From positions 3,648,949 through 3,661,228 of the forward strand of contig NZ_LT984884.1 in assembly GCF_900258515.1 (NCBI RefSeq): 12,280 nucleotides of DNA, written 5' to 3'. A model generated the notes under the pieces. It was not told the origin of the DNA, searched no databases, and saw nothing but the letters and a program-made list of their open reading frames with translations. The DNA is from Lentibacillus sp. Marseille-P4043. GTDB taxonomy: Bacteria; Bacillota; Bacilli; Bacillales; Amphibacillaceae. Made by a program: the position numbers and the translations under genes. Shown in pieces: positions 3,095-12,170 of this stretch. Position 1 is the first letter of the stretch. Each line of letters starts with the position of its first letter.

Positions 3095-3188
3095 TGAAAA
3101 CACCTCCTGTGATTAGTGTTGCAAATTTGTTAGGTTTATATTCTAAGGATATTTTCGTAATGTTTGTTGCTTTTTATTTCGCAGTTGA

Positions 3189-3348
3189 TATAAAATGCGC
3201 AGTAACTTTTATGTGACTTCCTCTCATTCTTTACAAGATGAGTGGAAATCGCGGCTTGGGGGAAATACACGCTTTCCGTGGGGAACGCTTCAGCCTCCTC
3301 GCGAGCAAAAACCGCTCACTGCGGGGTCTTCAGACAGTTCCTTTCCCA
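3189..3348 (-). repeat. dispersed intergenic repeat, copy 2
   Basis: Read on the minus strand, this is the same element as copy 1, here with more of its 5' part: CTGAAGACCCCGCAGTGAGC, GGTTTTTGCTCGCGAGGAGG, then CTGAAGCGTTCCCCACGGAA and the rest to TGCGCATTTTATAT at 3198-3185. It directly follows the 3' end of the group II intron and forms its 3' exon. The two copies differ by scattered substitutions, so they are not recent duplicates. No coding frame is conserved. Confidence 0.75.
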
Positions 3349-3403
3349 GTCGAGTAAGCGGGAGCGACGCCCACTTGGCGGGCGTGCTCCTCAACTCCTC
3401 ACA
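3349..3403 (-). ncRNA. group II intron domain VI with branch-point adenosine
   Basis: After domain V, GGAGC-A-CGCCC and GGGCG-TC-GCTCC pair around a GCCAAGT loop, with an outer GAGT/ACTC pair. An unpaired A at 3355 in CTTACTCGAC is the likely lariat branch point, seven positions from the proposed 3' splice site. Confidence 0.65.
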
Positions 3404-3436
3404 GAACCGTGCGTGCAGTATTATTGCACACGGCTC
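3404..3436 (-). ncRNA. group II intron domain V (catalytic hairpin)
   Basis: The minus strand reads GAGCCGTGTGCAATAATACT then GCACGCACGGTTC. It is a 33-base hairpin with the conserved AGC triad at its 5' side and a matching GGTTC 3' side, the most conserved structure of group II introns. It lies 14 bases after the maturase stop. Confidence 0.9.
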
Positions 3437-3449
3437 TTCCTACCATCTT

Positions 3450-4766
3450 TCACAGAATATAGTTAATGTCTTTCTTTAGTTCATATATGTTCACTTTAAT
3501 CTTTGGTCTAGGTAACGGATATCTTCTAAGAAATAAGATAAATTTATCCCAGCTAAAAGATTTCCGTTGACTTCTTCGGTTCATCCACTTAAACAATATC
3601 TGCTTAACACGATCAAGAAAGTTTTCCACAGCTAGTAAATTGTCCGTGATACAATAGTAATTGTAATAACCATTGAGTGACCGTTTTAATCTATCCATGA
3701 TGACTTTAATATCCATGTTTCGATGAGTTTTGAGCCATTCCTTATGGTTCTTTAGCTTGTTATTTACTTTCTTTCGATTGCTTTTTCGTTTAACACGAAA
3801 CTTCCCTTTCTGGCTTTTGCTACAGTAGTGAGTAAAGCCCAAGAAGTCGAATGTTGGTGGTTTGCCTTGCCCATCTTTTTCAACGAACCGTCCAAAGGTA
3901 ATGATTTTCGTTTTATCCTTTGCAACTTCAAGATTAAACTTTTGCAGTCGTTTGATAAGAGCTGAATAGAAGGCTTCGGCATCACTTTTGTATTGAAAGC
4001 AACACACAAAGTCGTCTGCATATCGAACCATATAAGCTTGACCTTTACATTTCTTTCTAACCGCCTTCTCAAACCATAAGTCTAAGACATAGTGCAGATA
4101 CACATTAGCTAGAATAGGTGAAATGACACCCCCTTGAGGTGTTCCTTTGTCTATATCAAAGTATTTACCTTCCTCCATGTATCCGCCTTTTAGAAATCTC
4201 GCGATAATTCTTAGAAGGCTTGGGTCGTTGATACGATGCTTGAGGAATTTCATCATCCATTCATGGTCAACATTATCAAAGAAACCCTTAATATCGGCAT
4301 CGACAACGTAATTTGTTTTACGCTTCTCGATATACATATTAAGTATCTTCAGTGCATCATGACAGCTTCTAGATGGTCGAAAGCCAAAAGAGGAGTCGAG
4401 AAAATCATTCTCATAGATAGCGTTAAGAATTTTCGCTAACCCCCGTTGTACAACTTTATCCTCGTGGTCGGGAATGCCTAATGGTCTTTTCTTCTTTGTT
4501 CCTGGCTTATTGATATAAGTCCGTTTGACCGGGACTGGTCGATAAGCCTTCTTTTTGAGACGTTCCACTAAACCTTCAATGTTTTCGTTAAGGTCTTTAC
4601 CATAGTCCTCCTTGGTGATACCGTTTATACCTGTTGCTTTACCACTTGGAAGTTCACGATGGCATTGTTTGAGATAATCCTTGTTAAGTAGATGTGCCAG
4701 AGAAGTGAAAACCATATCATGATCTGCTTTCGCTAATTCTGCTATCCTTGTTAGTTTCGTTTCCAT
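3450..4766 (-). CDS. ltrA: group II intron reverse transcriptase/maturase (LtrA-like, no HNH domain)
   Basis: This 438-residue multifunctional protein binds the intron RNA, aids its splicing, and copies it into DNA at a target. The RT blocks are in order: SGKATGINGITKEDYG (about 41-56), KRPLGIPDHEDKVVQRGL, SSFGFRPSRSCHDALK (125-140), VVDADIKGFFDNVDHEW with the first catalytic Asp (154-170), GTPQGGVISPILANVYL (208-224) and the active-site YADD at 249-252. The maturase X domain is represented by LKRSLNGYYNYYCITDN, and the chain ends with a basic, proline-rich segment. There is no HNH endonuclease domain, so insertion probably uses single-stranded or replication-fork DNA. The ATG at 4766 follows AGGTGG at a suitable distance. 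All key residues are present and the frame is intact. Confidence 0.95.
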   Translation of the reverse strand: METKLTRIAELAKADHDMVFTSLAHLLNKDYLKQCHRELPSGKATGINGITKEDYGKDLNENIEGLVERLKKKAYRPVPVKRTYINKPGTKKKRPLGIPDHEDKVVQRGLAKILNAIYENDFLDSSFGFRPSRSCHDALKILNMYIEKRKTNYVVDADIKGFFDNVDHEWMMKFLKHRINDPSLLRIIARFLKGGYMEEGKYFDIDKGTPQGGVISPILANVYLHYVLDLWFEKAVRKKCKGQAYMVRYADDFVCCFQYKSDAEAFYSALIKRLQKFNLEVAKDKTKIITFGRFVEKDGQGKPPTFDFLGFTHYCSKSQKGKFRVKRKSNRKKVNNKLKNHKEWLKTHRNMDIKVIMDRLKRSLNGYYNYYCITDNLLAVENFLDRVKQILFKWMNRRSQRKSFSWDKFILFLRRYPLPRPKIKVNIYELKKDINYIL

Positions 4767-6125
4767 TACATATCCACCTCTGTGTGCAGTTAATGTTTCC
4801 CTTTCAAGGGCGGTGACAGGTAGCGAGCCTTCCCTCCATCAGCGTTACCCGACTTCATTGGTACTATGCTGCTATCCGACTTCCTTTAAGCATTTGACAG
4901 CCCTCACTTTATTATCGCTTGTTCGTCATTACCCTTCTCATTTTACTAGAGGGACCTAAAGGATCTCCCGAGTTGCCGTAATATATCAATGTGTAACGTG
5001 CCAAGGTCATCGACTCCGGGGAAGTCATTATTCTCTTGCCGTTAACGAGAATAACAATATTGCCTTCTGGGCTCCTGAACACATCAGCCTTCCCATTTAA
5101 CACGAATTTCGAAGCTCAATCCCTTCAACCGCTTGGCTTACGGCCCATTGTCGGGTAGAAAACTGGCGCGCACATTCATTAGAATTACGTTTCCAGTAGC
5201 CCCCCTGCGATCCCGGACGGTCGGTTTTCCCGAGTCCGGTTCTGACCTTGGATAAATCATATACAAGCCTTCCCAATTAACCGCAGGATTAAATGTAGGT
5301 ACACATATTCCCCCATCAATTAATGGTTTACTTTTATACTAGCCTGGAGTTCATTACAAGCTCCGAGTCTTGTTGTCCTTGCAATCCAAGTGCCCAGAGG
5401 TCCTTCGCTCTATCATAGGTGTTACCCTGATAGAAGTGTAATTTACTTACTCTTAGAAAGGAATTACCCTTTCCTCATAGCTACTACGTCCTCATGCGCC
5501 AGTCCTAAATCATCTTGTCAATTTCTATTGTGCCTCTTATATGACAAGTCTTCATTGATTAGTACCATATCAATTAGAAGTAGGACCTTCCCGTCGTTAT
5601 CTCTAAGAATCTTTCCACAGATGCAGGAACCCATGCCCCGGCTGCTCTTACAGTGCTTTTAACCGTTACTTCCTGTAAGACATCGGTCTTCCCCCACTAG
5701 GCAAAGGTCGACGCTAAGCAAATATCCCTCGGATAGCTTCATTGAGGGGCGTAGATTTCGGGACTGCAGTATTCGTTAAAGCCTTCCAGCCTCTGTGTTT
5801 GCTTGTCACGCTGACTATCCCAACCTTATCCTCTCTGTGTAGAATAGGCTGCCGTGACTTTTACTTCCAAGCAGAACGTAGTTTGTTACCTCCCCACGCA
5901 TTGGATATGCTAGTCATCCGAACCGGTTAATTGATGACAGGAGACTTTCACTCCATTAGATTCTTAGCCTTGACGGCTGCTCCACCTTGCTGTCTACGCT
6001 TAAAGGCAGTGCGTTACCACCTGCCCTCCAAGACTCGCTACGAGTGAATGGCTAATTCTTTCTCGACGGGAATCCCACCCGCTATATATTACGACCTATG
6101 CTCGGTCGCTCCAGGAGTCTCGCAT
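4767..6125 (-). ncRNA. group II intron 5' ribozyme region (domains I-III and start of IV)
   Basis: No gene is credible in these 1.36 kb; the short frames on both strands have no ribosome binding sites and are unlike proteins. The minus strand is full of local stems: CGACC-gagcata-GGTCG near 6098-6080, GGCAGGTG-GTAA-CGCACTGCC around 6027-6003 with a GNRA loop, and the CGGAC...GTCCG pair near 5237-5213. The stretch AAGTCGGATAGCAGCATAGT (about 4884-4865) followed by ACCAATGAAG resembles domain II/III junctions of bacterial introns. Usual bacterial introns have 0.5 to 0.8 kb here, so the region may hold an insertion. Four copies of GGAAGGCT recur at 5787, 5274, 5094 and 4834. Confidence 0.7.
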
Positions 6126-6575
6126 TTCCCCCAAGCCTAAGTCCGATTTTCTGTCCGTGGGAGAAGAAAACCACTTAATATTAAAATCATTAACAACTAC
6201 TCACAATCCAGAAAATTCTTATCAGCGAAGTATTCTGGTGGAGCGTATTCAAGCACCTCTGTTAATTAGAACAATTGAAGTCCTTGTAATATTCACTATT
6301 ACGCATTATATAGCTTATGTGTTGTATTTTGCAATGCGAGTTCTTAGAAAATTGCAATCACAAATCGAGAATGTTGCAACTTGACACGGAGCCTCTGTGA
6401 GCATGAGTGATTAGCCAAGAAGCCAGCTGTAATAAGGCTTGGCTAAGTTGATCATGGTATCATACTCACTTCTCCGTATAAAGTCGCAACGGCTTAATCC
6501 CCTTGCAATACTCTCGACTTTTACTTTGCACTAAACATGTGTCATAAAGCGGTTACCTTTATTCCGCTATACCCG
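6126..6575 (+). repeat. dispersed intergenic repeat, copy 3 (diverged and interrupted)
   Basis: TTTCCCCCAAGCC at 6125-6137 followed by CGATTTTC matches the head of the repeat in plus orientation. The tail at 6298-6322 matches 103-127 with one mismatch and resumes at 6537 with ATGTGTCATAAA and CCTTTA. The stretch 6150-6297 between them is not recognisably repeat and holds nothing I can name. AGCGG and CCGCT near 6548-6569 can form a small stem. The copy faces away from copy 2, so the intron sits between head-to-head copies. The tail match is firm; the head match is short. Confidence 0.55.
6323..6536. mobile_element. MITE-like palindromic insertion with ATGTGT direct repeats
   Basis: This 214-bp segment splits a sequence that is continuous at 103-134, and is flanked by ATGTGT at 6317-6322 and 6537-6542. 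Its two halves are imperfect inverted repeats in matching order: TTGCAA (6329), ATTGCAA (6351), GTTGCAACTT (6373), ACGGAG (6386), GTGAGCATGA (6397) and TTAGCCAA (6411) on the left. On the right are TTGGCTAA (6439), TCATACTCAC (6460), CTCCGT (6472), AAGTCGCAAC (6481), TTGCAAT (6503) and TTTGCA (6525). It encodes nothing. A non-autonomous transposable element is the best reading; a structured RNA gene is the alternative. Confidence 0.6.
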
Positions 6576-6710
6576 TTTGTACACCTTGCAGCACTTAGCG
6601 TTTATTATTAATTACAAATCCATGCGCCATTCAAAGTTCATGGAGGTGTTTTATATTGGTGGAAAATGTATACTAGAATCAGTAATAACTTTTTTAGGAG
6701 AGGTAAGATT

Positions 6711-10441: not shown

Positions 10442-10790
10442 GAGGATCGTGCGCGGGTTGATGTTGCTGTTTTCGGGTTGATGTTTCCGTTCTCCGGCTG
10501 ATGTTCCTGCGATTCGGGTTGATGTTTCCGCTCTCGGGCAGATGTTTCATGTTTTCGCGCCGATGTTGCTGCTTTCGGGCTGATGTTCCTGCTCTCGAGC
10601 CGATGTTTCATGTTTTCGCGCCGATGTTTCATGTTTTCGCGCCGATGTTGCTGCTTTCGGGCTGATGTTCCTGCTCTCGGGCCGATGTTTCATGTTTTCG
10701 CGCCGATGTTGCTGCTTTCGGGCTGATGTTCCTGCTCTCGGGCTGATGTTTCATGTTTTCGCGCCGATGTTGCTGCTTTCGGGTTGATGT
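10442..10790. repeat. minisatellite of 20/21-bp units with 61-bp higher-order period
   Basis: Sixteen units beginning GATGTT run without gaps from 10460 to 10785, with a degenerate unit before and a cut one (GATGT) after. There are three main types: a, GATGTTGCTGCTTTCGGGCT; b, GATGTTCCTGCTCTCGGGCC; c (21 bp), GATGTTTCATG then TTTTCGCGCC. From 10541 the order is c-a-b-c-c-a-b-c-a-b-c-a, giving a 61-bp a-b-c period, while units 10460-10540 are more diverged. The lengths are not multiples of three and no frame is kept, so it is non-coding. It is clearly more GC-rich than its surroundings. The right end is cut by the IS256 element. Confidence 0.93.
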
Positions 10791-10794
10791 AGTC

Positions 10795-10815
10795 AAGTCC
10801 TAAATATTGTGTAAA
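10795..10815 (+). repeat. left terminal inverted repeat of the IS256 element
   Basis: AAGTCCTAAATATTGTG followed by TAAA. Its reverse complement is found with five mismatches at 12252-12272. A subterminal inverted repeat AAATATTGT/ACAATATTT overlaps it (10802-10833). Confidence 0.7.
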
Positions 10816-10856
10816 TCCCTTGATACAATATTTCAACTATTTATGGTTTATAGTTT

Positions 10857-10904
10857 AATTTTATTTGGTTGGGAAGGGGTACCCCTTCCCAACCAAATAA
10901 AATT
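10857..10904. repeat. perfect 48-bp palindrome without spacer
   Basis: The 24 bases on each side of the centre (between 10880 and 10881, in GGGGTACCCC) are exact reverse complements, from AATTTTATTTGG at the left edge to CCAAATAAAATT at the right. It lies inside the IS, 89 bp beyond the transposase stop. It is not a canonical terminator because the U-rich part precedes the stem on both strands. Confidence 0.95.
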
Positions 10905-10992: not shown

Positions 10993-12170
10993 TTAATCTT
11001 CATCACGATAAAAGAATCTTTTTTCACCGGGATCCATTGCTTCATCGCAATCCATGAGTACTGCATCAATTAAACGGAATGCAGAGTCTATATTAGGGAA
11101 TATTCGGATGACACTTTCTCTTCTTCTCACTTCAGAATTTAGTCTTTCCAGAACATTTGTAGTTCGTATATGGACGTGGGTGTCTTTATCCTCTGTATAA
11201 AATTGAGCGGCATCTTCATAGCCCTCATCTAACGTTTTAATGGCCTTTTCATACTTGTTATCGTCTTCGTATTTCTCGATGAATTCATTTTTTAACATTC
11301 TTGAGATTTTAGCTGTAGGTGCTTTGAAAATTTCCTTTAGATGATCACGTGCCTCTTTTGATCCTTTCTTAGGCATTTCTTTAATGATGTTCCGTAAAAA
11401 GTGTACTGTGCAACGTTGCCAGCTTGTATTTAGGAAACTTTCCGTAATTGCTGCCTTTAAGCCTTCGTGAGCATCAGATATAACTAATTTTGGTGCTTGG
11501 AGTCCTCGTGATTTCAAATATTTAAAAAACACACTCCAGGTTTCTTTAGATTCAGTGTTAGCTACCTTAAATCCTAAAATTTCTCTTTTGTCCTGGCTAT
11601 TAACTCCTAAAGCAATATAAACGGCCTTGGAAACCACCCTGTGATATTCACGAACTTTAATGCACATCGCGTCGACATAAATATAGTTATAATATTGTTG
11701 ATTTAGAGGTCTTTGAGCCCATTCCTTAACAATAGGATCCAGCTTCTTGGTTAGCCCGGATACCATCGATTTAGATACCTTTTCTCCGCAAAGCTGCTCG
11801 ACGACTTTCGTAACTTTACGGGTAGAGACACCGTTGATTACCATTTCCAACATGGAAAGCAAAAGGCTTTATCACAACGCTTATATTTTTCAAATAGCTA
11901 CGTTGAAAATTCCCCGCTGCGAGTACGTGGAACTTTTAATTTTACCTTTCCTATATTAAGAACCAAATCCCTTTCATAGTAACCGTTTCTGTAATCCTTT
12001 CGATCCTCCTCCCGTTTATATGGGGCGCTCTTCATATATTGGTTTCTTTCCATCTCCATGTACTCATTAAATAATAGAACGATAGATGATTTTACAACAT
12101 CATTTAAATCAGATTGAAAGACTTCCTGTTTTATTTTTTCAAAGTCTAGGTTAAACTGTAACTGGGTCAT
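10993..12170 (-). pseudogene. IS256-family transposase, inactivated by a stop codon and a frameshift
   Basis: The N-terminal part starts at ATG 12170 after AGGAGG (12184-12179) and reads MTQLQFNLDFEK to PRTRSGEFST, then hits TAG at 11900-11898. The same frame continues after the stop as LFEKYKRCDKAF, the expected family sequence. A one-base loss in the T-run at about 11864-11861 (minus strand) then shifts into the second part, SMLEMVINGVSTRKV to FFYRDED. Together they make about 393 codons, a normal length. The DDE residues remain: Asp in YIYVDAM, Asp in VISDAHEGL, and Glu in NVLERLNSEVRRRE. IS256 proteins cut and paste DNA through a circular intermediate; this copy should be inactive unless both lesions are bypassed. 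Confidence 0.9.

Follow-up and report, generated by a model that had tools for sequence, protein, structure and literature searches.

The question raised by this locus is whether the palindromic segment that splits a dispersed repeat is a mobile element or an original part of that repeat and, further, what its folded core might be doing. The window, by which we mean the whole stretch of 12,280 nucleotides analysed, comes from Lentibacillus sp. Marseille-P4043 and holds inverted copies of the dispersed repeat at 5-133 and 3173-3300; repeat-like sequence is also found upstream of the second copy of the element discussed below (L002). On the plus strand, the tail of the repeat is uninterrupted at 102-146, which by repeat matching is the empty form of the target, and is interrupted further along (left part 6297-6322, 96% identical to 102-127; right part 6538-6561, 76% identical to 122-146, with the match given for 6537-6561). 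The split repeat and its palindromic insert, as described in the initial annotation, are therefore present. The inverted self-match of the insert has a local score of 19.5 compared to a shuffle mean of 10.1 (sd 2.0), with 1 of 1000 shuffles scoring as high, and for 6297-6561 the z-scores of folding come to -3.6 (plus strand) and -4.2 (minus strand).

The insert had been taken for a MITE whose empty site is visible in the window, and this is borne out. A second copy is found in the same genome (G000:C1:3876070-3876284), identical at 214 of 215 positions (one mismatch) and flanked on either side by TGGGA, its own 5-bp duplication; copies in other genomes have other flanks again. Since the second copy bears TGGGA on both sides, the element spans 6323-6537 and its target duplication is the 5-bp TGTGT at 6318-6322 and 6538-6542. 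The duplication originally proposed, the 6-bp ATGTGT, has to be rejected on the same comparison: the sixth matching base, the A at 6537, is the end of the element, and once it is counted the insert is 215 rather than 214 bp long. The opposite view, that the palindrome is original to the dispersed repeat and that the copy at 102-146 is a deletion, might draw on the fact that a similar repeat motif is found close to each of the two copies in this genome. However, the second copy sits 27 bp beyond the corresponding point of that motif and has a different 5-bp duplication, and the relatives in other genomes have other flanks, so that the homologues do not share one point of one repeat. Because the two insertion points differ, the palindrome is no part of the repeat, and the deletion scenario, refuted by the second copy, retains practically no probability.

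To which family does the element belong? None had been recognised at first, and while the MITE assignment stands, the family can now be named. The element has TGT...ACA ends and no long frame of its own (the listed frames, each 60 aa or longer, overlap 6323-6537 in part only), and a search with it gives matches in 20 of 100 related genomes. In four of them (G009, G030, G033 and G050) only the outer 34 nt are in common with the MITE, and two of these, G030 and G050, have complete 2.4-kb IS21-type elements that agree with the MITE at both the left and the right end and carry two frames, one of 521 and one of 245-263 residues. The shorter frame is IstB (PF01695, 224 bits; tested for L264, from G050); the IstA-sized frame has no Pfam match. 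On the minus strand, comparison with these elements (L262-L265) matches 6489-6537 to their left, istA-side end (TGTTTAGTGCAAAG... with subterminal TTGCAA repeats) and 6323-6375 to their right, istB-side end (...TTGCAAAATACA). Their copies are flanked by 5-bp duplications (ACACT, TCTAT, CCAAA and CAATT), read by eye from the flanks, as were all duplications save those of the window MITE, its second copy and the IS21-type copies of its own genome. Since the ends, the 5-bp duplication and the autonomous relatives agree, the element is an IS21-type MITE.

A full transposase element with the same ends is thus known from G030 and G050; in the genome of the window itself none with the ends of this MITE was found. 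That genome does carry three copies of a different IS21-type element, with 26% identity to the IstA-sized frame, one of which has a clean 5-bp duplication (GTTGT in L319; none in L317 and L318). Its ends are those of four more hairpin-carrying MITEs there (L075, L076, L078 and L079), and L075 has a clean 5-bp duplication, ACATT; a fifth such MITE, L077, is more diverged. We regard it as nearly certain that the 215-bp segment is a non-coding IS21-family MITE that came into the dispersed repeat from elsewhere, most likely mobilised in trans by IstA/IstB.

The window has several other features of its own. On the minus strand, 3349-6075 holds parts of a group II intron, matched by Rfam at 3349-3438, 5004-5250 and 5959-6075; a frame of 438 aa at 3450-4766 looks like the intron's reverse transcriptase. 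The 5' model is matched in two separate places, which points to either a composite intron or two introns. A 6S RNA is found at 2402-2587 on the minus strand (Rfam, 75.4 bits). Towards the far end are a run of direct repeats about 20 nt in period, with 10 registered copies (10452-10832), a perfect loop-free palindrome with two 24-nt arms (10857-10904) and, at 10993-12170 on the minus strand, a pair of frames resembling, by eye, the two parts of a split IS256-type transposase.

The six inverted blocks of the insert turned out to be two nested systems: an outer one of IS21-type terminal and subterminal repeats, and an inner, separate conserved hairpin. Many relatives match only the middle of the MITE and have quite different surroundings. 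We described this middle by a covariance model (R1; 113 positions, 31 pairs) built from 17 aligned cores, the window copy included. The window copy lies at 6376-6488, with the minus strand as the folding strand, and scores 113.4 bits, as a member of the training set. On that strand the hairpin has three helices and an asymmetric bulge, AGAGG, in the 3' arm. It is no known Rfam RNA, as none of the six Rfam matches with E up to 1 falls in 6323-6537. A pseudoknot between AGCCT and AGGCT was considered and rejected, since in the alignment, judged by eye, the invariant AGCCTCT stands opposite a partner that varies without compensation. A version of the window MITE of about 104 bp without the hairpin exists in another genome (L038 1501-1604, G028:C1:70307-70410); it could be an empty site, or the hairpin may have been lost by deletion between the TTGCRAC repeats that lie at the base of the stem.

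The structure of the hairpin is kept by compensatory changes, and on one strand in particular. In the 17 rows, 92.0% of cells are paired compared to 29-39% with slid partners, and 13 of the 31 pairs have changed on both sides. A larger set of 95 distinct rows from named genomes and plasmids gives 92.6% compared to 30-41%, with both-sided changes in 21 of 31 pairs and 292 double-change cells against 111.8 in shuffles; these rows are partly dependent, as identical hairpins recur (for example, L253 and L019), some genomes are shared with the training rows and the alignment was fitted to the structure. One-sided departures read on the folding strand are mostly G.U rather than C.A: 35 cells against 5 in the 17 rows, 242 against 90 in 159 unique sequences, and 214 against 85 in the 145 of them outside the training set. 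The bias holds both where the hairpin is on the transposase strand (45:25) and where it is on the opposite strand (37:10). We therefore read the covariation together with the strand bias as selection on the fold of one particular strand. The suggestion made at the outset that the segment might be a structured RNA gains support as far as a covarying core with a preferred folding strand is concerned, but RNA and single-stranded DNA fit this core alike, and the G.U preference does not separate them.

The hairpin is by no means confined to the genome in which we found it. Model R1 detects it in 86 of 159 genomes of the same bacterial family, with 8 copies in the genome of the window and 15 in G116. 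An exact 26-base pattern matched at least 119 stretches in 84,980 species genomes; among the matches listed, the titles name Bacillus, Paenibacillus, Brevibacillus, Alicyclobacillus and relatives, some Clostridia and other Bacillota. Among plasmids, 10 of 72,556 records gave a match, and there was no match in 50,697 phage records. The loci from named genomes were picked by an exact pattern in the 3' arm, and the conservation of that arm is for this reason partly by construction.

What do the carriers of the hairpin have in common? At 202 loci, neighbouring frames no more than 120 nt away point their 3' end at the hairpin in 50 + 53 cases, as against 10 + 13 that face it with the 5' end. When 16 transposase and related seeds were run over 188 unique loci, a seed transposase was found within 1.5 kb at 79; in 61 of these the 3' end lies no more than 200 nt away, in 1 it is the 5' end, 5 overlap and 12 lie farther. 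Strand depends on the transposase family. For seeds within 350 nt, the hairpin is behind the gene and on the same strand in 30 of 36 IS3 cases, whereas its strand is opposite to that of the gene for IS256 (20 of 22), IS110 (11 of 11) and IS30 (4 of 4). Pfam identifies IS256/Mutator, IS110 and IS3 proteins among the hosts; the IS30-type host is assigned from a sub-threshold rve match (26.2 bits, cut-off 32.6) and reading of the sequence. PF06782, which we take to be the ISLre2 transposase, is found beside the hairpin at L201 and L096. Flanks resembling those of MITEs are found at many of the other loci. Several kinds have IS21-type ends, and one kind in G127 has 8-bp duplications (GATAAAAA, AAATTTCT, AATAAAAT) and ends resembling an ISL3 element of the same genome.

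Some loci are of interest for their neighbours. In Paenibacillus, hairpins lie behind a DarT1-associated NADAR antitoxin gene and a Kelch-type gene (L174 1577-1688 and L230 7076-7186), with no transposon ends recognised in the flanks read. On plasmid NZ_CP019642.1 (L256 2496-2609), the hairpin is 7 nt behind a UvrD-type helicase gene that itself follows an AAA ATPase gene, a pair presumably akin to a Gabija defence operon. In Alicyclobacillus (L160 6198-6310), it is near the 3' end of a TniQ gene, and the right flank ends like an IS21-type MITE.

The host range has limits as well. In 26 hairpin-rich genomes, the hairpin is within 450 nt behind 15 of 139 IS3 domains, 14 of them on the same strand at 34-67 nt, and behind 10 of 105 IS110 domains, 8 of these 10 in G116, where many IS110 rows are copies of one element. 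Listings compared by eye place it beside 0 of 42 IS66 domains and 0 of 75 ISL3 domains; L227, a candidate IS66 host, reads as a MITE within an IS66 gene, and IS66 was rejected. Among the matches listed for DDE_Tnp_1, it is behind 1 of 145 rows (L129), in a comparison that omitted some fragment rows and used 119 of 121 hairpin rows, two being reverse-strand duplicates; since the L129 hairpin lies behind an IS3-type orfB, this domain was also rejected as a host. IS4/IS5-type transposases have no adjoining hairpin after inspection. The available text of PMC9333248 lists eight copy-out-paste-in families (IS1, IS3, IS21, IS30, IS256, IS110, ISLre2 and ISL3), and the hosts of the hairpin correspond to seven of these eight, IS21 and ISL3 as MITEs only and IS1 not seen; the copies counted are not independent, and the domain counts cover IS3, IS110, DDE_Tnp_1, IS66 and ISL3.

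How the hairpin came to be in such different hosts can be judged from its own tree. Loci were labelled by simple flank patterns and the nearest transposase (46 of 202 have no host label), and identical sequences were merged into 137 rows; 5 of these were dropped and two labels corrected by hand. The resulting 132 labelled rows in seven host groups require 25 host changes, with 6 being the least possible and 64.7 the shuffled mean, and several of the changes are forced by well-supported branches. The hairpin type of the window (L002) falls in a 99/92 clade with 9 rows of IS21-type MITEs and 2 rows of ISLre2. The 25 changes thus imply that the module has moved between transposon families several times. 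We consider it very probable that the core is not specific to IS21 but represents a strand-polar, selected family residing in unrelated transposons, beside the 3' ends of their transposase genes or within their MITEs, and repeatedly passed between them.

The presence of the hairpin in unrelated transposon families suggests a common, though unproven, function. Tentatively, we favour the possibility that it may act in cis as a folded single DNA strand in a replicative step. The host families are reported to copy themselves out via a figure-eight, which replication would have to turn into a circle; the strand displaced at this circle-forming step would need a priming or protein-loading site, and the hairpin could supply one, much as rolling-circle plasmids need a single-strand origin. 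Such a role would explain why gene-less MITEs keep the hairpin, why promoter and terminator are absent and why there is a single folding strand, which may be that of the transposase in one family and the complementary one in another. In favour are the host range within seven of the eight copy-out-paste-in families, the gene-less carriers and the fixed strand. Against it stand the ISL3 domains and the examined autonomous IS21-type elements, which are without the hairpin, and the IS3 carriers, which are not more numerous per genome than non-carriers. In the IS3 subgroup inspected, the orfB stop lies a short way from the right inverted repeat, with no hairpin, at 10 of 20 loci; 8 have about 190 bp extra between the two, hairpin included, and 2 are ambiguous. 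Per genome, copies without the hairpin are at least as numerous (for example, 6 in G161, 5 in G168 and 3 in G105) as those that carry it, of which there is mostly 1. For the IS256-type host, a search for sister copies lacking the hairpin gave matches in 4 of 155 genomes. In addition, the accessible part of PMC7780238 shows the right end of an IS256-family element to be the donor. By reasoning from this, a right-end donor would displace the transposase strand, and the folding strand of the IS256 hosts is the opposite one, which would speak against a folded DNA strand.

Alternatively, the hairpin might act as RNA: the folding-strand transposase mRNA, or read-through RNA, would be bound or cut (by RNase III or an RNA-binding protein, for example), setting mRNA stability or limiting expression. 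The preference for G.U over C.A on one strand would agree with this, in IS3 and ISLre2 hosts the hairpin follows closely on the transposase stop codon and shares the strand of the gene, and, according to the portion of PMC3446304 available, the MITE-like repeats bcr1, bcr2 and bcr3 of B. cereus are often found in UTRs. Yet the folding strand runs antisense to the transposase gene in hosts of the IS256, IS110 and IS30 types. In the MITEs, moreover, the hairpin is preceded by about 50 nt, and promoter-like sites show no excess (17 of 102 compared to 15.1 expected). A small RNA transcribed from a promoter of its own was rejected on this count, and hairpin RNA from MITEs would consequently need outside promoters. 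We regard an RNA role as possible but rather unlikely.

A terminator, or an insulator at the 3' end of the transposase or against outside transcription, would agree with the placement of the hairpin at transposase 3' ends in either orientation. But there is no terminator-like site in 6200-6700, and at least five T in the 8 bases after the hairpin are found on the folding strand in only 19 of 169 unique copies and on the other strand in 27 of 170, so that an intrinsic terminator, which would have a U tract after the stem, was rejected. As this function would also leave the strand bias and the gene-less carriers unexplained, we find it quite improbable.

Finally, the hairpin might be a hitchhiker, either a small self-moving palindrome (REP-like and HUH-mobilised, for instance) or one spread by recombination, that piles up in transposons as safe and copied sites. 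Many unrelated hosts and 25 host changes are easily accommodated in this way, as are the hairpin-less version of the window MITE and the copies in whose flanks we recognised no transposon end (L174, L230). Nevertheless, the structure is kept by compensatory changes while the host transposases diverge, the IS3 subgroup carriers retaining it despite transposase drift to 75% identity, and both position and orientation follow the host family. No enzyme or target rule for movement of the hairpin itself was found, and L038 could equally be the deletion described above. We therefore consider a hitchhiker unlikely. The folded DNA strand remains the function that we tentatively prefer, and the explanation as a whole, which combines an IS21-family MITE, a shared selected hairpin and the folded-strand role, appears to us probable. 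It is tempting to go further and speculate, with low confidence, that one non-coding hairpin is an exchangeable cis-acting part whose single folding strand links seven unrelated transposase families, together with their gene-less MITEs, to the replication machinery of the host across Bacillota; it would then be a component of the transposition pathway and not of any one transposase family. A cis element of this kind that follows the copy-out-paste-in pathway in nature would open its replicative step to testing, and the hairpin model can already be used to search Bacillota genomes for transposons and MITEs.

With regard to known systems, the window MITE shares with IS21-family elements and their non-autonomous derivatives the TGT...ACA ends, subterminal repeats, 5-bp duplication and autonomous relatives, but it is without istA/istB and has a hairpin module that the examined autonomous relatives lack. 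Omega RNA and the bridge RNA of IS110 are structured non-coding transposon parts each belonging to one transposase type, whereas the hairpin module is common to unrelated types and has no Rfam match. Plasmid single-strand origins and primosome sites are hairpins that act in cis, on one strand and without a promoter. The likeness would lie in the mode of action, should the hairpin indeed work as a folded DNA strand; single-strand origins are plasmid sites, whereas the hosts of the hairpin are mostly chromosomal transposons. Bacterial MITEs with strong folds are common, as stated in the available sections of PMC3733652 and PMC2267715. The bcr1 and other MITE-like repeats of B. cereus and the Bhal-1 stem-loops are likewise short, mobile and strongly folding repeats of Bacillaceae, but the portions of PMC2267715 and PMC3446304 at hand describe no core common to different transposon families, a distinction drawn from descriptions and not from sequence. 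The stem-loop survey of PMC2267715, as far as its accessible text goes, set aside 28 IS-related cluster groups, which could have held the hairpin family unseen. The REP elements of RAYT transposases are also dispersed palindromes with an asymmetric hairpin, but they are 20-40 bp long according to the part of PMC3733652 available, whereas our module is about 113 nt long and lies inside transposons, and by length it was rejected as a REP element. In the open-access literature, which omits most subscription papers, we found no description of a hairpin module shared by transposon families, and four 16-base hairpin cores were absent from open-access paper texts. To our knowledge, no structured, selected and strand-polar module exchanged by unrelated transposon families, mostly near the transposase 3' end, has been reported. 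The MITE itself is thus an ordinary member of a familiar class, and the novel part is the strand-polar hairpin module that it shares with unrelated transposons.
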